DNA of 64,000 nucleotides from an uncultured Oscillospiraceae bacterium (GTDB taxonomy: Bacteria > Bacillota > Clostridia > Oscillospirales > Oscillospiraceae), in the NCBI GenBank assembly GCA_944385095.1, contig CALWVS010000009.1, positions 18,890 to 82,889 on the forward strand, written 5' to 3'. The notes under the pieces were generated by a model. The model ran no database searches, was not told where the DNA came from, and worked only from the letters and a program-made list of their open reading frames with translations. Shown here in pieces: positions 4,391 to 40,972 of the stretch. Every line of letters starts with the position of its first letter. The first letter of the stretch is position 1. The translations under genes and the position numbers were made by a program.

Positions 4391-6472
4391 ATGGATCGTT
4401 ACATCGGTAAATTACTCGATAACCGCTATGAGCTGTTGGAGTTAATTGGGATTGGTGGAATGGCCAGGGTCTACAAAGCCCGCTGTCACCGCCTCAATCG
4501 ACTGGTAGCAGTAAAGATTCTCAGAGACGATTTGGCGCAGGATTCCGAGTTGCGCCGTCGCTTTCATGAGGAATCACAGGCGGTTGCCATGCTGTCCCAT
4601 ACCAATATTGTGGCAGTATACGATGTGAGCCGGACTTCTGAACTGGAATATATTGTGATGGAACTGATTGATGGGATTACCCTGAAACAGTACATGCAGA
4701 AGAAGGGAAACCAGCTCAACTGGAGAGAGGCACTCCATTTTATCACCCAGATTGTGAAAGCCTTGGGACATGCACACAGTCGAGGGATTATCCATCGGGA
4801 CATTAAGCCACACAATATTATGGTGCTGCGGGATGGCAGTGTGAAAGTGGCTGATTTTGGGATTGCCAGAGTGATATCAGGCAGTCACAGCACACTGACA
4901 CAGGAGGCCCTTGGCTCTGTTCACTACATTTCGCCGGAGCAGGCAAGAGGAAGCCATATTGATGCCCGCTCTGACCTGTATTCTGCCGGTGTGGTTTTAT
5001 ACGAGATGATTACAGGACGGCTGCCCTTTGAGGGAGACACCCCTGTTTCTGTGGCAATTCAGCACATCAACTCCATTCCACTCTCTCCCAGAGAAATTGA
5101 CCCGGACATTCCAGAGGCACTGGAAGCCATTACCATGCGTGCTATGGCACCCAATCCAGACCAGCGGTATGCCTCTGCCGATGAGATGTTGGCAGATTTG
5201 GAGGAGTTCCGCAAAAATCCCAATATGAATCTGGAATATCATCCCCCTATTTCGATTTTAGATGAGCCGGATGAGATAGAAAAAACGCAGGTGTTGTCCA
5301 CCGGTGGTTCAAAGTCCAGAGCCTCTGCTGCACATGGGGCAATGGAGGCAACCATGGTACACCGCACTCCTGTTCCACCTGCCAGACGGCAACAACGGGA
5401 AGTGGAAAGGGATGAGGGGGAACGGGATTACAGACAGCCCAGAAGCAGCCTGCCTATGGTGGGCGCAGTGGTTGCCATTTTGATTTTTGTGGGTGCCCTG
5501 CTGTATATGATGTTTTCCTCTGTATTTTCCAGTATTGACCAGCCCCAGTCTCAACAGATACAGGTCCCCAAGGTGGTGGGCTATCTGATGAGCGAAGTAG
5601 ATGGCAACACCAGTATTTTGGGTTCGTTTACACTGGAAAAGACGGGGGAACGTGAGGATGAAAGCCCGGCTGGAACTATTTTGGAACAGATACCCAAAGC
5701 CAATAGCACCGTGGCACAGACGGAAACCACCATTCAGGTGATTGTCAGCTCCGGTCCTCCAGAAGAAATTCTGATGCCGGATTTGACAGATAAACCGCTG
5801 CAAACAGCCCTGAATGAATTGAATCAGTTGGGTGATTTTGAAGTTGATTTCACAAGCCGCAGTGAATACAATGATACCATAGAGCGTGATCATGTCATTT
5901 CCACCATTCCTGTGGCAGACACGGTGATCAAAGAAGGGGATAAAATTTTCCTCACTATGAGTTTGGGTAAAAAAAGTGAACTGGTCACCATGATGGATAT
6001 TCGAGGGTTGGATGAGGATGGTGCAATCAAAGCCATTCAGGGTCTTGGTCTGACGGTGGGCAGCACAGAGCGCAGCAGTAACAGCGAATATCCAGAAGGA
6101 GAAGTGTGGTTCCAGTCCATAGCACCCAATCAGGAAGTGGAAAAAGGAACTGTGGTGAATATCATTATCAGCACAGGTTCTGGCGAGGGAGATGGAGAGG
6201 AAGAACCAGAGCAGCCAGACGAAGGAGAACAGGGCACTGTGGGCACAGTCAACAAAGTCATCCACTTTGCATTACCTGACACGGGCAGCGTGATTACAGT
6301 GGAAATTCGGGACAGCCGGGACATTGTGGTCTATGGACCAGAACAGAAGGACACCAATTTTGATACCGGAATTGATGCCACTGTCACCGGCAGCGGTTCG
6401 GAGCAGTATACCCTGTATATTGATGGCAAAAGTTACAGCAGCCAAGTGGTAGAATTTGAGGCGGAATCATGA
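4391..6472 (+). CDS. prkC: Membrane Ser/Thr protein kinase with PASTA repeats (PrkC/StkP type)
   Basis: A 693-residue single-pass receptor-like kinase. The cytoplasmic kinase domain (about 10-270) has a glycine loop (GIGGMARVYKA), catalytic Lys42, HRDIKPHN with Asp137, and the metal-binding DFG at 155-157. A linker rich in Arg and Glu follows, then one membrane segment (about 354-376). Outside lie about three PASTA repeats (roughly 393-600), which in this family bind muropeptides, an acidic Glu/Pro/Gly linker, and a C-terminal beta-rich region not typical of short homologues. GGAGG lies just before the ATG. The last codon overlaps rsgA (ATGA). In spore-formers PrkC also triggers germination in response to muropeptides. 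Confidence 0.95.
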   Translation: MDRYIGKLLDNRYELLELIGIGGMARVYKARCHRLNRLVAVKILRDDLAQDSELRRRFHEESQAVAMLSHTNIVAVYDVSRTSELEYIVMELIDGITLKQYMQKKGNQLNWREALHFITQIVKALGHAHSRGIIHRDIKPHNIMVLRDGSVKVADFGIARVISGSHSTLTQEALGSVHYISPEQARGSHIDARSDLYSAGVVLYEMITGRLPFEGDTPVSVAIQHINSIPLSPREIDPDIPEALEAITMRAMAPNPDQRYASADEMLADLEEFRKNPNMNLEYHPPISILDEPDEIEKTQVLSTGGSKSRASAAHGAMEATMVHRTPVPPARRQQREVERDEGERDYRQPRSSLPMVGAVVAILIFVGALLYMMFSSVFSSIDQPQSQQIQVPKVVGYLMSEVDGNTSILGSFTLEKTGEREDESPAGTILEQIPKANSTVAQTETTIQVIVSSGPPEEILMPDLTDKPLQTALNELNQLGDFEVDFTSRSEYNDTIERDHVISTIPVADTVIKEGDKIFLTMSLGKKSELVTMMDIRGLDEDGAIKAIQGLGLTVGSTERSSNSEYPEGEVWFQSIAPNQEVEKGTVVNIIISTGSGEGDGEEEPEQPDEGEQGTVGTVNKVIHFALPDTGSVITVEIRDSRDIVVYGPEQKDTNFDTGIDATVTGSGSEQYTLYIDGKSYSSQVVEFEAES

Positions 6473-7344
6473 GGGGAATCATTTTAAAAGCACTGAGCGG
6501 GTTTTACTATGTAGACGATGGGGCACAGATTGTGACCTGTCGGGGACGTGGGAAACACCGCCACGCCAAAGTCAGCCCACTGGTAGGGGATTTTGTGGAG
6601 TTCACACCGCTGGGGGATGGAACCGGGGCATTGGATGAGATTTTACCCAGAAAAAATGAGTTCCAGCGTCCGGCAGTGGCAAATATTGAACAGATTGTCA
6701 TGGTGGTTTCTCAGGCAATTCCCAAAACAGACCCCTTTCTCATTGACCGCCTGATTACCATTGCAGAGGGAAAAGGCTGTGAAAGTGTCATCTGTATCAA
6801 CAAATGTGATTTGGAAAGCGGACAGGAGCTGGCAGAAATCTACCAGAGTTGTGGCTATCCCACAGTGCAGGTCAGTGCCCACACAGGGCAGGGGCTGGAA
6901 GAACTAAGGACCTTGATTGCCGGAAAAGTGTGTGCCTTTACTGGCAACTCCGGCGTAGGGAAATCCAGCTTGTTGAATGCGCTGGAGCCACAATGTTCCA
7001 TTGAGACAGGCGAGGTAAGCCAAAAACTGGGACGTGGACGGCACACCACCAGACATGTGGAGTTGTTCCGGCTGGGCTGTGGCGCAGTGGTGGCAGATAC
7101 CCCCGGTTTTTCCTCCTTTGAACTGGATAAAATGGAACTGTGCCGCAAGGAGGAACTTTCCAGCCGCTTTCGGGAGTTTTTGCCCTATGAGGGGCAATGC
7201 CAGTTTCCAGATTGTGCCCATATTAAGGAAAAGGGCTGCGCTGTGTGTCAGGCACTGAAAGAAGGCAAGCTGCACAAAAGCCGCTATGAAAGCTATGTGC
7301 GCCTCTATGAGCAGGCAAAACAAATTCCAGACTGGCAGAGGTAA
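6469..7344 (+). CDS. rsgA: Ribosome small-subunit-dependent GTPase A
   Basis: A circularly permuted GTPase that helps mature the 30S ribosomal subunit. In this 291-residue protein the G motifs appear in permuted order: NKCD (G4), GNSGVGKSS (G1, residues 159-167) and DTPGFSSF (G3). An N-terminal OB-fold precedes them, and the C-terminal zinc site shows the C-x4-C-x-H-x5-C pattern in CQFPDCAHIKEKGC. It is the last gene of the operon, its ATG overlapping the prkC stop. Linkage of prpC-prkC-rsgA is common in Firmicutes. A strong terminator follows about 90 bases downstream. Confidence 0.96.
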   Translation: MRGIILKALSGFYYVDDGAQIVTCRGRGKHRHAKVSPLVGDFVEFTPLGDGTGALDEILPRKNEFQRPAVANIEQIVMVVSQAIPKTDPFLIDRLITIAEGKGCESVICINKCDLESGQELAEIYQSCGYPTVQVSAHTGQGLEELRTLIAGKVCAFTGNSGVGKSSLLNALEPQCSIETGEVSQKLGRGRHTTRHVELFRLGCGAVVADTPGFSSFELDKMELCRKEELSSRFREFLPYEGQCQFPDCAHIKEKGCAVCQALKEGKLHKSRYESYVRLYEQAKQIPDWQR

Positions 7345-7430
7345 AAACGCCGCAGAAACTGACAGTCAAGGGAATGTATCCTGAGAGACATCTGAAAAGT
7401 TTTTTTATTCCTCTCTTTTCAAAAAAAAGA

Positions 7431-7469
7431 AAAACAGGTCGCAGTGGAATGGCTGCGACCTGTTTTTTT
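7431..7469. terminator. Bidirectional rho-independent terminator after rsgA
   Basis: Perfect 14-bp stem (AAAACAGGTCGCAG, 7431-7444, with its complement 7453-7466), an 8-base loop and flanking A and T runs. It can stop the + strand rsgA operon and the convergent XRE gene. Confidence 0.93.
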
Positions 7470-7488: not shown

Positions 7489-7737
7489 CTATTCATCCAG
7501 TAAATCTGCATAGCTGACATGTAAGACCTTTGCAATGACCTTCAATTCAATGTCTGTTACAAACCGCTGACCACTTTCAATCCTCTGTATGGCGTTCTTG
7601 TCTACATCCAGCCCTGCAATTTGCAACAGTTCAGCCAGTTCCCTTTGGGATGGCTTGGTGGTCATCGCCTCCCGAAAGGCTTTGATTTTTTGTCCACTGA
7701 TGTTGTTCTTTCCATCCATTGCTTTGTTCTTGTACAT
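7489..7737 (-). CDS. Small XRE-family helix-turn-helix regulator
   Basis: An 82-residue DNA-binding protein made almost wholly of a Cro/C1-type HTH domain. The segment SQRELAELLQIAGL, followed by DKNAIQRIESGQRFVTDIE, fits helices 2-4 of the fold, and the end (VLHVSYADLLDE) is the usual closing helix. CAGGAGAGCC precedes the ATG on the minus strand. It stands alone, convergent with rsgA and divergent from spoVM. Its target is unknown; the adjacent spoVM promoter region is one possibility, but no operator was identified. Confidence 0.85.
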   Translation of the reverse strand: MYKNKAMDGKNNISGQKIKAFREAMTTKPSQRELAELLQIAGLDVDKNAIQRIESGQRFVTDIELKVIAKVLHVSYADLLDE

Positions 7738-7847: not shown

Positions 7848-7877
7848 GTATCAGAAACAGCAGCCCGCACATATACT
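7848..7877 (+). promoter_or_regulatory. Putative sigma-E promoter of spoVM
   Basis: CATATACT at 7870-7877 matches the sigma-E -10 consensus (CATAYAMT) at all eight positions. GTATCAGA at 7848-7855, 14 bases upstream, is only a partial -35 match. Transcription would start about 30 bases before spoVM. Confidence 0.55.
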
Positions 7878-7911
7878 ACAGTAGACTTGCACTGAGAGGG
7901 GAGGGATTGGA

Positions 7912-7995
7912 ATGGGTATTGTAGTGGTGCGTTCCCCCAAATTTTTGCGGGGTGTGTTGCGGATGGTGTTTGGCTTAAAACAAACACAGGAATAA
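7912..7995 (+). CDS. spoVM: Stage V sporulation protein SpoVM-like amphipathic peptide
   Basis: A 27-codon gene too short for most gene finders. The peptide contains SPKFLRGVLRMVFG, close to the core of B. subtilis SpoVM (KLPKFLGGIVRAML, 26 residues): a helix-breaking Pro, Lys-Phe-Leu, then an amphipathic helix with Arg on the polar face. In known spore-formers SpoVM recognises the convex forespore membrane and recruits SpoIVA. GGGGAGGG (about 7898-7905) lies 7 bases before the ATG, and a sigma-E-like promoter lies upstream. The next genes are sipL and spoIVA, its expected partners, which strongly supports the call. The gene stops inside the -35 element of the next promoter. Confidence 0.9.
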   Translation: MGIVVVRSPKFLRGVLRMVFGLKQTQE

Positions 7996-8018
7996 TACAG
8001 TGACCTTTCCCATATAGT
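7989..8018 (+). promoter_or_regulatory. Putative sigma-E promoter of sipL-spoIVA
   Basis: GGAATAAT (7989-7996) matches the sigma-E -35 consensus GKMATAWW fully. CATATAGT (8011-8018) matches the -10 CATAYAMT at 7 of 8 positions. The spacer is 14 bases. The -35 overlaps the spoVM stop codon. The start point would fall near 8025, ahead of the ATG at 8072. Confidence 0.7.
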
Positions 8019-8071
8019 GTGTCAGAGCCGAAGGAGCTTTGAGACCAACTAGACAGGGAGAGGATGCGTTC

Positions 8072-9580
8072 ATGGAATTGGAATTCGACCGAGAGGTGCT
8101 ACATTGCTATCAGGTACTCAGTACCAAAACCATCAACCAGGAGGAGACCATGGAATCCATTGTTCCAGATGCCTGCCCAGATATTCAGGAGATTATGGGC
8201 GTATATGGGCAGGCATTTCTGGAGCAGAAACAGGGAGAGGAGGGAGGTGCAACCCTGTCGGGCACGGTACATACCACGGTGTTATATCGACCGGAGGAAG
8301 GGCAGGGGCTAAAAAAACTGACTGTGAAACTGCCCTTTACCATCCGGCTGGATGAGGGAGGACGGCAGTGTGTCATACAGGGGCGTGTATGGGTAAAGTG
8401 TGCCAGTGCAAATATCCTGAACCCCAGAAAGATTCTGCTGAAAGTGGAACTTGCAGGCTGTGTGATGCTGTTGCAGCCTGTCAAACAGGTACTCTGTCAG
8501 GGTGTACTGGAGCCGGAGCGATGGAATATAGAGGAGAAAAAGACAGAGTGTGAGAGCTATCAACTCTGTGTGGCACAGGAAAAGCCCTTCTCCTTTTCGG
8601 AACAGATTCGCACCAATGGCACAGGGGAAGAAGAATTACTCTGGTGGAAGGCAAAGCCCCAGTGCAGTGAGTGCAAACGGATTGGAAACAAGCTGATTTT
8701 CAAGGGGAATGTAGAGGTAGAGTTGCTGTTGCAGCAAAATGAGGGAGAGTTGACCACCCATCAGGAGAATTTGCCTTTCTCTCAGGTGATGGAACTGGCA
8801 GAGGCTGGGGACAGCGGAGATTGTCAGGTGATGGTGGAACTGAAGTCTATGGACTGTGTGCAGGGGGATGGTCATGGCTGGGAAGTGTCTCTGGAGCTGG
8901 TGGCACAGGGGCAGGTGTGGCAGCCCCAGTCCTTTGCACTGCTACAGGATTTGTACAGCACCACCCATGAAACCAAAGTACAGATGGAGCATTGCAGCCT
9001 GTTGCAACGGCTGGAGCAGCCAGACCAGACCATCAGCCTGCGGGAGCTGGTGGAGACGGAGGAAATGCCCAGAACGGTGTTGGAACAGTGGGTGACAGTG
9101 GGGGAGACTACACGGAAACAGGATAGTGATGGGTTGAAGCTGGAGAGCAAGGCATATGTCACCATGCTCTATCTGGATGAGGCAGGGACACTGCATGTTG
9201 TGGAGAAAACCTTCCCATTGTCCTGTCAGCTGGAACAGAGTGCAGACAGAAACCATCTGACATGGGGAATCTGGCCAGGTGAGGTGTATGTTTCGCCGGC
9301 AGTTGGAGGGCTGGAGGTGCGGTGTACCTTTGAAGTGCCCTGCCTGTGCCTGAAAGAGCAAGACATTGCATGGGTTTCCGGGGCTACATTGGGAGAGGAG
9401 CGTCAAAAAAAAACGGGACGTCAGCCCTCTATGGTGCTGAGGTTGGCATCTCCAGAGGAGAGCCTGTGGGATCTGGCAAAGACCTATGGCACAACCATGC
9501 AGCAGATCGCAGCAGCCAACCAACTGGAGGGGGAACAACTGCCTCTGGGCAGTATGCTTCTCATTCCAGCCATTCGCTAG
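8072..9580 (+). CDS. sipL: SipL-like spore coat/cortex morphogenetic protein (DUF3794 + LysM)
   Basis: A 502-residue protein resembling SipL of Clostridioides difficile, the functional counterpart of SpoVID that binds SpoIVA and ties the coat to the forespore. The N-terminal part (starting MELEFDREVLHCYQVLS) and the middle look like repeated DUF3794 modules, each starting with a strand-rich stretch such as ARGVVxxxVLY-type segments. Residues about 454-502 form a LysM domain (ESLWDLAKTYGTTMQQIAAANQL). An upstream in-frame TTG at 8039 is only three bases from its Shine-Dalgarno, whereas the ATG at 8072 follows GGGAGAGG at correct distance. It is followed 17 bases later by spoIVA. Confidence 0.88.
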   Translation: MELEFDREVLHCYQVLSTKTINQEETMESIVPDACPDIQEIMGVYGQAFLEQKQGEEGGATLSGTVHTTVLYRPEEGQGLKKLTVKLPFTIRLDEGGRQCVIQGRVWVKCASANILNPRKILLKVELAGCVMLLQPVKQVLCQGVLEPERWNIEEKKTECESYQLCVAQEKPFSFSEQIRTNGTGEEELLWWKAKPQCSECKRIGNKLIFKGNVEVELLLQQNEGELTTHQENLPFSQVMELAEAGDSGDCQVMVELKSMDCVQGDGHGWEVSLELVAQGQVWQPQSFALLQDLYSTTHETKVQMEHCSLLQRLEQPDQTISLRELVETEEMPRTVLEQWVTVGETTRKQDSDGLKLESKAYVTMLYLDEAGTLHVVEKTFPLSCQLEQSADRNHLTWGIWPGEVYVSPAVGGLEVRCTFEVPCLCLKEQDIAWVSGATLGEERQKKTGRQPSMVLRLASPEESLWDLAKTYGTTMQQIAAANQLEGEQLPLGSMLLIPAIR

Positions 9581-9597
9581 GAGAGGGAGGAAACAAC

Positions 9598-11076
9598 GTG
9601 GAGGAACGCAATCTTTACGAGGACATTGCCCTGCGCACAGAGGGGGATATTTATATTGGCGTGGTTGGACCTGTACGGACAGGAAAATCCACCTTCATCA
9701 AGCGATTTATGGAAAGTCTGGTGATTCCCAACATTGAGCATGTATACCGCAGGGAGAGAGCCAGAGATGAACTGCCCCAAAGTGGGTCAGGGCGTACCAT
9801 TATGACCGCAGAACCCAAATTTGTGCCAGAGGAGGCAGTACCCATTACCATGGAAAATGGGGCTTCCTTTCAGGTGCGGCTCATTGACTGTGTGGGCTAC
9901 ATGGTAGACGGTGCAATGGGGCAGATGGACGGGGAAGAACAGCGGATGGTCACAACCCCCTGGTTTGACCACGAAATTCCTATGGCAGAGGCGGCAGAAA
10001 TTGGAACACGGAAGGTAGTGTCGGAACACTCCACCATTGCCATTGTGGTGACAACTGATGGCACCATTACAGACATTCCAAGAGAGGGGTATCTGGAGGC
10101 AGAGGAGCGGGTGATTTCCGAGTTGAAAGAACTGGGAAAACCCTTTCTTGTGGTGCTCAACTCGGCATACCCCAGTTCCGACCGGGCTAGGGCAATCCAA
10201 AAAGAACTGAGTCAGCGGTATCAGGTTACATGCCTTGCTGTGAACTGTCTCACGCTGGAAGAAGGGGACATCAATGGGATTTTGCAGCAGGTTTTGTATG
10301 AATTCCCAGTGAAAGAACTGGATTTGTATTTGCCCCACTGGGTAGAGGCACTGCCACAGGAACACCCCATTCAGGAAGCACTGTATGGCGTCATCCGTCA
10401 GGCAGCCCAGCAGCTGCACCGCATCCGGGATGTGGAAGGGGCAGTGAAAGCTATGGGAGCCTGTGAACAGGTCAGCGATGCCAGAATTTCTGCCATTGAT
10501 TTGGGGAGCGGTGTGGCAGCGGCTGTGCTGGAACTGCCCAGAAGCCTGTTTTATGATACCCTGTCCCAGCAGTCTGGATTCCAGATTGCAGACGATGGGG
10601 ACTTGATGGGGCTGTTGACAGAGCTTGCAAAGGTGAAAAGTGCCTATGACAAGGTAGCTGACGCTTTGAAAGAAGTGGAGGAAACGGGATATGGTATTGT
10701 AGTCCCCTCCATTGATTCTCTGGTTCTCGAGGAGCCAGAAATTGTGCGGCAGGGGGGACGGTATGGCGTGCGGCTGAAAGCCAGTGCCCCATCTATCCAT
10801 ATGATTCGTGCCGACATTGAGACAGAGGTCTCTCCCATTGTGGGCAGTGAGAAACAGAGCGAGGAGATGATTCACTATCTCCTACAGGAATTTGAGGGAG
10901 ATACAGGAAAGATATGGCAATCCAATATTTTTGGAAAGTCCTTCCATGAACTGGTGGGAGAGGATTTGAACGCAAAAGTAAAAAGAATGCCAGAGGACGC
11001 CAGAGAGAAGCTGAGGGAGACGTTACAGCGGATGATCAACGAAGGCTCTGGTGGGCTGATTTGTATTATTTTGTAG
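9598..11076 (+). CDS. spoIVA: Stage IV sporulation protein A (coat morphogenetic ATPase)
   Basis: A 492-residue protein, exactly the length of B. subtilis SpoIVA, which polymerises by ATP hydrolysis into the basement layer of the spore coat. The N-terminal TRAFAC-type domain has Walker A GPVRTGKS (residues 24-31), followed by DELPQS, TIMTAEPKFVP and EIGTRKV segments typical of the family. The C-terminus ends in INEGSGGLICIIL, nearly the same as the invariant B. subtilis end. Translation begins at GTG 9598 after GAGGGAGG; the frame is open further upstream but overlaps sipL. It should be recruited by SpoVM and bound by SipL, both encoded just before it. Confidence 0.98.
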   Translation: MEERNLYEDIALRTEGDIYIGVVGPVRTGKSTFIKRFMESLVIPNIEHVYRRERARDELPQSGSGRTIMTAEPKFVPEEAVPITMENGASFQVRLIDCVGYMVDGAMGQMDGEEQRMVTTPWFDHEIPMAEAAEIGTRKVVSEHSTIAIVVTTDGTITDIPREGYLEAEERVISELKELGKPFLVVLNSAYPSSDRARAIQKELSQRYQVTCLAVNCLTLEEGDINGILQQVLYEFPVKELDLYLPHWVEALPQEHPIQEALYGVIRQAAQQLHRIRDVEGAVKAMGACEQVSDARISAIDLGSGVAAAVLELPRSLFYDTLSQQSGFQIADDGDLMGLLTELAKVKSAYDKVADALKEVEETGYGIVVPSIDSLVLEEPEIVRQGGRYGVRLKASAPSIHMIRADIETEVSPIVGSEKQSEEMIHYLLQEFEGDTGKIWQSNIFGKSFHELVGEDLNAKVKRMPEDAREKLRETLQRMINEGSGGLICIIL

Positions 11077-11079
11077 TGT

Positions 11080-11109
11080 GGGGTGGCTGCCTGTGGCAGC
11101 CCCTTTTTT
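11080..11109 (+). terminator. Rho-independent terminator after spoIVA
   Basis: GGCTGCC (11085-11091) and GGCAGCC (11095-11101) form a tight stem, extended by G/C pairs and followed by six T residues. It begins a few bases after the spoIVA stop. Confidence 0.88.
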
Positions 11110-11198: not shown

Positions 11199-12074
11199 AT
11201 GAAATTGCAGGATTTACTGTTGGTTTTTTTTGTATGTGTCATCATTGTACTGCTTTGCGTGGTGATTTGGCGCAATCTGAAAAAAAGAAAAGGAAAAAAG
11301 CCAGATGCAGTTACCACCACATTGTCCCCTACCTTGCAGTGGCTGAACACAGCAGGGTCTATTTTGCTGGCGGTGAATAAGGAAGATTTCCGTTACATGG
11401 GGGGAATGTATACCCCAGGGAGCGAAAAGAGTAGCCGCAAGCTTGAGAGCATCAAAACCATGCTGTGGGACTATTGGGAGATTGATGGGCATGAGAGCGC
11501 AATGGAGACCATGACACACCTGGTTTCTACAGGCATGAGAAGCCGGTATTGGCGTGATATGGTTTTGCTTGAGACGGTGTTTTCTCAGTATTCAGAACAG
11601 GAACTCATTGAGGAGGCAAGAAAACACAATCCAAACGCCAACGCAGAGAGTTTATTGCCCAAAACATTGATGGCATACAGAAAATATGGAGAAAATGCCC
11701 TGCTGGGCTGGGATGTGGGACGTGCTGCCTATATTATACAGTGTTGCTATTTTGCGGGGTATGTCTCCATGGAAGAAGTTCTGGAAATTGGAGTAGAAGC
11801 AGGAAAATTAGCACAGGAATGCTTTGATAACTGGGACCAGCTGATGGAAAGTTATCTGTTAGGCGGGCAATACTGGCAGGAAGAAGATGCCAATGAGCCA
11901 AACTCCATGACAGCCGGGCGGAGAAAGCTGTATGAGAAGCTGCGCACTGGAACAGGGGCATATGAGGTGAATCCCTATCAGATGGTTGCATTCCAGACCC
12001 CACTTTCCAAAGAAGTGGTGACCGACCAGTATGGGATGATACCAGCTTCTCAGGCGTATGCTCAGAAAGACTAG
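11199..12074 (+). CDS. DUF1266-domain protein with N-terminal membrane anchor
   Basis: A 291-residue protein of unknown function. Residues about 5-24 form one hydrophobic membrane segment followed by a strongly basic stretch (WRNLKKRKGKK), so the rest is probably cytoplasmic. The C-terminal half shows DUF1266 features: a WDVGRAAYIIQCCYFAGYVS segment, then GQYW and a YLLGG motif. No catalytic residues can be assigned. AAGGAGAGG precedes the ATG. The gene stands alone with its own promoter between the spoIVA terminator and the cobalamin genes. A second frame (11078-11380) is less likely, having no ribosome site or family features. Confidence 0.8.
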   Translation: MKLQDLLLVFFVCVIIVLLCVVIWRNLKKRKGKKPDAVTTTLSPTLQWLNTAGSILLAVNKEDFRYMGGMYTPGSEKSSRKLESIKTMLWDYWEIDGHESAMETMTHLVSTGMRSRYWRDMVLLETVFSQYSEQELIEEARKHNPNANAESLLPKTLMAYRKYGENALLGWDVGRAAYIIQCCYFAGYVSMEEVLEIGVEAGKLAQECFDNWDQLMESYLLGGQYWQEEDANEPNSMTAGRRKLYEKLRTGTGAYEVNPYQMVAFQTPLSKEVVTDQYGMIPASQAYAQKD

Positions 12075-32455: not shown

Positions 32456-32532
32456 TGGTCGGAGTGTGGGGATTTGAACCCCAGGTCTCTTGGACCCGAA
32501 CCAAGCGCGATACCAAACTTCGCCACACCCCG
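32456..32532 (-). tRNA. tRNA-Pro(CGG)
   Basis: A complete 77-base tRNA on the minus strand with encoded CCA. The acceptor stem is CGGGGTG/CACTCCG with one G-T pair. The anticodon stem CTTGG/CCAAG encloses loop TTCGGGT, giving anticodon CGG (codon CCG). The T loop is TTCAAAT. Position 10-26 forms a normal D arm. Confidence 0.96.
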
Positions 32533-40612: not shown

Positions 40613-40617
40613 TTTTG

Positions 40618-40972
40618 GTGCAAGTGAGCCTGTAAGCCGGGTTCTGTCTTTTAAGACAGTCATCTATCTCGACGCACTGTTGCCAGTACGCTCTAGCCGC
40701 CTCCACGGAACGGTCGGGCCAACCTGTATGTCCCTCCACAGCGTTGCTCCAGATAGAGTTTACAGCGACGGGCACTTCCGAGCCGTCGGGTGAGCTCTTA
40801 CCTCGCCTTTCCACCCTTACCTATGTAAACACACAGGCGGTATATCTCTGTTGCACTTTTCCTAGGGTCGCCCCCGGCAGGTGTTACCTGTTATCTTTGC
40901 CCTACGGAGCCCGGACTTTCCTCATATCTGGAACTTTGGCTCCAGATACGCGACTGTCCAGCTTACTTGCCG
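40618..40972 (-). ncRNA. rnpB: RNase P RNA, class A-like
   Basis: The catalytic RNA of RNase P, which trims tRNA 5' ends. The universal P4 strands are present on the minus strand: GAGGAAAGTCCGGGCTCC near the 5' end and ACAGAACCCGGCTTAC near the 3' end. P1 is formed by GCAAGT (40970-40965) with ACTTGC (40625-40620). The central part has the CCTAGGAAAAGTGCAACAGA and GGTAAGAGCTCACC elements of the specificity domain. The length of about 350 bases and this layout fit class A. Ends are estimated from P1 and the promoter. Confidence 0.95.

Follow-up and report, generated by a model that had tools for sequence, protein, structure and literature searches.

The 64-kb window analysed here (the whole stretch of DNA, G000:C9:18890-82889), which belongs to a 2.43-Mb, 98.9% complete genome of an uncultured Oscillospiraceae gut bacterium, encodes the spore-coat base-layer genes spoVM, sipL and spoIVA in a row on the + strand. 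The 27-aa (amino acid) spoVM (7912..7995) is followed after 76 nucleotides (nt) by sipL (8072..9580, 502 aa) and, after another 17 nt, by spoIVA (9598..11076, 492 aa, GTG start), all three codirectional, with a terminator-like hairpin 3' of spoIVA (11085..11101, + strand). A reading of the letters without database searches (hereafter the sequence-only reading) had proposed these three identities, and they were borne out by profile matches. SipL carries three stretches of PF12673 (SipL/SPOCS, formerly DUF3794; 77.3 bits) and a C-terminal LysM domain (PF01476, 33.7 bits, residues 461-499 of 502); the gene begins at the ATG at 8072, and the mechanical open reading frame (ORF) opens at an upstream TTG at 8039. 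SpoIVA matches TIGR02836 over its entire length (1-492 of 492; 718.1 bits vs a cut-off of 459.9) as well as PF09547, PF20438 and PF20439, and its Walker A motif, GPVRTGKST at positions 24-32, is invariant or nearly so among 15 sequences; no solved structure matched the window SpoIVA at E<=0.01. Judged by SpoIVA, the nearest named relatives are an uncultured Oscillospiraceae metagenome-assembled genome and genomes named Flintibacter, Pseudoflavonifractor and Flavonifractor.

The short frame, which encodes the peptide MGIVVVRSPKFLRGVLRMVFGLKQTQE from an ATG start, is present at 7912-7995 on the + strand as the sequence-only reading described it, with GGGGAGGGATTGGA immediately 5' of the frame and sipL and spoIVA directly behind; the locus start given there, 7848, precedes the coding frame itself. 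Its Shine-Dalgarno region, GGGGAGG, occupies 7898..7904 (+ strand), and Shine-Dalgarno-like motifs from a listed set were found at most 22 nt upstream in 57/59 spoVM sequences, the window included. The peptide matches the SpoVM profile NF033436 over positions 1-24 of 26 (E 4.1e-7, 29.9 bits), and this is the sole SpoVM match in the 2.43-Mb genome at E<=10 (E 1.2e-5), so that no better spoVM, one of the findings proposed as able to overturn the identification, turned up elsewhere. The closest solved structure is that of SpoVM itself (2mvh), a weak match (E 0.58) that is in register over residues 4-22. Among relatives, 124/153 single-change codons of spoVM are synonymous (81%, with 24% expected without constraint), as counted over 20 non-overlapping pairs in none of which the window takes part; at the sequence level, spoVM is under purifying selection among these relatives. 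The window peptide retains Pro9, and its helix is amphipathic, with a moment of 0.64 against a shuffle mean of 0.34 (fraction of shuffles as high, 0.046); the 5% shuffle level was reached by 34/58 SpoVMs of the comparison set. By position, the frame lies behind rsgA with a helix-turn-helix (HTH) gene replacing thiN. On this combined sequence evidence, the frame at 7912-7995 is a real spoVM. At residue 2 of SpoVM (window 7915-7917), the window's genus and its near relatives (L162, L164, L305, L306) have Gly, and most of the other sequences listed have Lys; L164 and L305 show no visible difference across the aligned stretch and may therefore be one genome.

The gene order was compared across 117 sampled genomes of the order, with spoVM and sipL counted as linked within 1.5 kb and sipL and spoIVA within 1 kb. 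A spoVM match at E<=0.1 was obtained in 75/117 genomes, only 20/117 exceeding the naming cut-off of NCBIfam (31 bits), of which the window SpoVM falls 1.1 bits short; this limit is a naming threshold and no trait of the peptide. In addition, the usual minimum gene length of Prodigal is 90 nt, so that an 84-nt spoVM would be skipped. The suspicion that automatic annotation is likely to miss this gene is therefore well founded. SpoIVA and SipL genes were found in 104/117 and 105/117 genomes, respectively, and both together in 102/117; all three genes occur in 74 of those, after six spoVMs were entered by hand from a closer, order-level model (G012, G025, G035, G056, G071, G104). A seventh match of that model (G062), 2.7 kb from spoIVA on the opposite strand, was omitted, and where sipL was split over contigs (G099, G112) the piece adjoining spoIVA was entered. 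Directly 5' of spoIVA, sipL is found in 49/117 genomes, with a median gap of 26 nt in 46/50 loci and gaps of kilobases in the other 4. SpoVM adjoins sipL in 35/117 genomes (25 codirectional, 10 divergent) from 13/26 families, and the complete codirectional triad is present in 18/117 genomes from 8/26 families. The divergent cases are G005, G006, G029, G030, G049, G064, G066, G103, G107 and G116.

Within the window's family, a spoVM match was obtained in 64/150 genomes, and sipL stands beside spoVM in 30/30 of the best of these 64 loci, the window included. Twenty-nine of these were called codirectional, and the label 'other' of the remaining one (L298) is probably due to a sipL open frame starting before spoVM. 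Conservation of the short frame in close relatives had been named beforehand as a decisive check, and the frame proved to be conserved, with both other genus members in the sample (L305, L306) also having sipL beside spoVM. In a second family (f23), the 30 best of 48 loci with a match, from 60 genomes, were inspected; because the best-scoring loci were chosen, both inspected sets lean to well-matching cases. Outside the order, in comparisons of a phylum sample beyond the window's own family and among the matches listed, spoVM lay within 3 kb of spoIVA in 0/35 genomes (both genes on one contig in 16), sipL within 3 kb of spoIVA in 0/38 (one contig in 11), and spoVM within 3 kb of sipL in 1/18 (one contig in 8); that one genome (G287) is from the same class as the window's genome, with sipL 2.3 kb away on the opposite strand. 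A codirectional triad was seen in none of the genomes compared outside the order. A diverged spoVM was also sought upstream of sipL in 32 loci lacking a match, several of whose contigs end just upstream of sipL, and nothing credible was found (best E 1.1). Two loci depart from the pattern: in Flintibacter muris (L163), thiI occupies the slot between rsgA and spoIVA that holds spoVM-sipL in relatives, sipL lying elsewhere in the genome and the spoVM search being confined to the stretch, and in L129 (G057) spoIVA is directly preceded by a SpoVM-like frame (E 9e-4 and 3e-4), with sipL on another contig.

A putative sigma-E promoter of sipL-spoIVA, GAATAAT-N14-CATATAGT, is located at 7990..8018 (+ strand) with its -35 element overlapping the spoVM stop codon, and is the only + strand site scoring >=14 in the window. 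Sigma-E itself is encoded in the genome (372.7 bits vs a cut-off of 348.6), and CATA is taken here to be the -10 core of its promoters. Across 75 non-redundant codirectional spoVM-sipL junctions, the core pattern of this site, ATA-N16-CATA, occurs in 43, compared with a mean of 0.7 and a maximum of 4 in shuffles (first-order Markov resamplings), and in 0/48 control stretches inside sipL. The spacing peaks at 16, other spacings from 13 to 19 giving 0 to 5 of 75, and 33 of the 43 sites lie between -3 and +14 from the spoVM stop. These 43 junctions combine a -35 ATA, a -10 CATA and a fixed spacing before a mother-cell gene. Because the strict pattern was picked after the scored hits had been viewed, on overlapping data from which the N16 spacing was also read off, the motif is firm in kind and its exact share approximate. 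The same type of pattern (N15-17) precedes spoIVA genes without a nearby sipL in 51/86 regions (shuffle mean 5.0, maximum 10), and it also precedes spoIVA in 16/48 triads or pairs (shuffle mean 0.3); the sets of 48 and 86, and the set of 39 used below, retain redundancy. In C. difficile, sigma-E sites are described as carrying ATA at -35 and sigma-K sites AC, and mapped sigma-E promoters are reported for both sipL and spoIVA (PMC3789822).

Upstream of spoVM, by comparison, ATA-N16-CATA occurs in 0/75 non-redundant loci. Since it occurs in 43/75 behind spoVM, sipL-spoIVA probably has a promoter of its own and is probably transcribed as a unit distinct from spoVM, although some read-through may occur. 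In the window, a putative weak spoVM promoter, TCA-N16-CATA with the -10 element CATATACT, is located at 7851..7877 (+ strand); it scores 12.7 of 15.3, which was matched by 5% of 40 shuffles. The corresponding pattern, [AT]C[AC]-N16-CATA, a weaker signal, was found upstream of spoVM in 11/75 loci (shuffle mean 0.7, maximum 4) and behind spoVM in 7/75 (shuffle mean 1.6, maximum 5), and is similar in the genus-mate L306. AC-N17-CATA was found upstream of spoVM in 22/101 regions within 300 nt (shuffle mean 2.5, maximum 8) and in 5/75 within 155 nt (shuffle mean 0.5, maximum 3). A loose sigma-E score, which was only slightly enriched upstream of spoVM (mean 10.47 vs 9.93 in 59 regions), was replaced by these strict patterns.

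The surroundings of the triad bear on its origin. Upstream of it lie a prkC-type PASTA Ser/Thr kinase gene (4391..6472, + strand; NF033483, 564.7 bits) and rsgA (6469..7344, + strand; TIGR00157, 228.8 bits), which is kept in relatives. Between rsgA and spoVM, a small antisense HTH gene (7489..7737, - strand; PF01381) occupies the slot that thiN holds in a number of relatives; it has a strong sigma-70-like promoter, TTGACA-17-TATACT at 7808-7780, and the thiN match of the window's genome is on another contig (C5), away from spoVM. A 15-pair hairpin at 7430..7467, scored as terminator-like on the - strand, separates rsgA from this gene, and by eye a + strand T run also trails it. In 16/40 loci having both rsgA and spoVM, a thiN-like frame was recognised between them by eye, and Pfam confirmed thiamin pyrophosphokinase in 4/4 of the frames tested. 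The order of the B. subtilis spoVM locus is presumably prpC-prkC-rsgA-rpe-thiN-spoVM-rpmB, with spoIVA and spoVID presumably located away from it. As in B. subtilis, spoVM in the window's lineage comes after prkC and rsgA, and a number of relatives also have thiN before it; the difference lies in what comes behind it, namely sipL-spoIVA. Since the rsgA-thiN-spoVM order of relatives matches that of B. subtilis, spoVM would have kept its original position, and sipL-spoIVA appear to have joined it later. The thiN-type order recurs in distant families (f9 and f13, Pfam-confirmed; f23 and f25, by eye), and because the order is identical there, a single origin with later breakage is favoured; as far as gene order can indicate, the three genes probably became neighbours once and were later disrupted. 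On a SpoIVA tree, the spoVM-sipL-spoIVA combination, with adjacency in either orientation, needs at least 8 changes. This tree came from a quick search, is unrooted with several long branches and does not separate gain from loss; spoIVA stretches were fetched for 100/104 genomes, omitting three that were fragments or cut (G017, G088, G105) and the window's own genome, and the tree has 99 rows, without G048 and G001.

In the remainder of the window, a DUF1266 protein is encoded directly 3' of spoIVA (11199-12074), and the - strand carries a class A RNase P RNA (40617-40969) and a tRNA-Pro (32456-32532). At the locus itself, an Rfam scan at gathering scores returned no RNA element.

Combined, these results are best explained by a base-layer coat locus in which a genuine, sub-threshold spoVM occupies its old place behind prkC-rsgA(-thiN) and is followed by sipL-spoIVA with its own sigma-E-type promoter starting from the spoVM stop codon, a reading of the sequence data to which a probability of about 0.85 is assigned. 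Under this explanation, SpoVM would insert as an amphipathic helix in the outer forespore membrane and tether SpoIVA, which would polymerise, and SipL would bind SpoIVA by its LysM domain and aid the encasement of the forespore; sipL-spoIVA would form a sigma-E operon, with spoVM before it on a weaker or different promoter. Several results weigh against this explanation. A site as good as that at 7990-8018 arose by chance in 3/10 resampled windows (about 0.3 per 64-kb strand), the strict pattern is missing in 32/75 junctions, and it is weak ahead of other sipL genes (8/39; shuffle mean 2.3, maximum 6). ATA-N17-CATA was found upstream of spoVM in 4/75 loci (shuffle mean 0.2, maximum 2), so that sigma-E may also drive some spoVMs. 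Furthermore, the SpoVM score lies just under the curated cut-off, and the triad is patchy, such that the changes required on the SpoIVA tree may reflect independent assembly in some families.

Among other explanations, the linkage could be an inherited neighbourhood only, kept without selection for co-expression, a proposal which is compatible with the best explanation and is given somewhat less than an even chance. In its favour, the linkage reaches rsgA and prkC, which are non-coat genes, and its losses are patchy; against it, spoVM-sipL linkage in either orientation is seen in 13/26 families while the presence of thiN, rsgA and spoIVA nearby varies. A more speculative and rather doubtful reading is that spoVM in this order is uncoupled from the SipL/SpoIVA sigma-E unit, being read from another mother-cell promoter (the sigma-K-like [AT]C[AC]-N16-CATA) or by read-through. 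SpoVM would then not initiate the coat but serve as an adhesion factor that comes later or is tuned, and its near-dispensability in C. difficile would exemplify a broader trend among clostridia, one that may also have permitted the loss of Pro9 in Neobittarella massiliensis and in some members of one family of this order.

Slightly less probable still, and unlikely overall, is a single tricistronic sigma-E operon read at matched dosage from a promoter upstream of spoVM. The codirectional genes and short gaps would suit such an operon, as would the CATATACT element and the few ATA-N17-CATA sites upstream of spoVM; from spoVM to the end of spoIVA, the terminator-like sites listed on the + strand are limited to two of 5 pairs each, which fall within spoIVA (10306, 11044), and some read-through from spoVM to sipL is likely in any case. 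The strict sigma-E-type element, however, lies behind spoVM and not before it, and relatives break the order, spoVM being divergent from sipL in 10/117 genomes and spoVM-sipL lacking an adjacent spoIVA in 7/117. The sequence-only reading was right that the three partners are encoded in a row in this lineage, as seen in the window and in relatives; its further suggestion of a dosage-matched module is weakened by the position of that element and lacks support here. An ORF arisen by chance, or a decayed remnant, might be suspected from the 27 codons and sub-threshold score of the short frame, but is highly improbable given the frame's genome-unique match, Shine-Dalgarno region, excess of synonymous changes, conserved position and amphipathic helix.

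The protein families and their functions are already known, as is the under-annotation of SpoVM, which was described in 2012 as rarely recognised in annotation (PMC3533761). The authors of that article, Galperin et al., did not succeed in finding SpoVM in several clostridia and raised the question of whether there are distant forms that work as they do in bacilli (PMC3533761). No description of the spoVM-sipL-spoIVA order was found in the titles or opening abstract lines of the papers listed by keyword searches of a literature collection that lacks subscription papers. C. difficile has the same three families, SpoVM, SipL and SpoIVA, but its genes are scattered, with spoVM near rpmB, spoIVA at CD2629 and sipL at CD3567. 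There, SpoVM is reported to bind SpoIVA and to be largely dispensable (PMC5607322), and SipL to bind SpoIVA through its LysM domain (PMC6436350). SpoVID of B. subtilis resembles SipL in its C-terminal LysM domain and in having SpoIVA as partner; according to PMC6436350, SipL has SPOCS domains and shares no homology with SpoVID beyond LysM. By analogy, in the window's lineage SipL may bind SpoIVA via LysM, and SpoVM may bind both SpoIVA and the forespore membrane.

Pro9 has been described as the only completely conserved SpoVM residue and as essential for curved-membrane recognition (PMC5607322). In the present comparison, Ser or Thr replaces it in nine SpoVMs, L075, L076, L077, L079, L221, L237 (Neobittarella massiliensis), L259, L273 and L276. 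Pro9 is missing in 4/30 inspected loci of family f23 and in 0/30 of the window's family. Eight of the nine have an xGF motif at positions 12-14, and several have kept rsgA and sipL as neighbours. By the moment test, however, L075 has no amphipathic helix.

These findings provide a context rule for the family, in that SpoVMs too weak to pass the annotation cut-off can be found by their position next to sipL. The SpoVMs without Pro9 are natural test cases for the need of this residue in curved-membrane recognition. For the organism, the putative promoter behind spoVM directly predicts whether SpoVM would be made together with SpoIVA and SipL.

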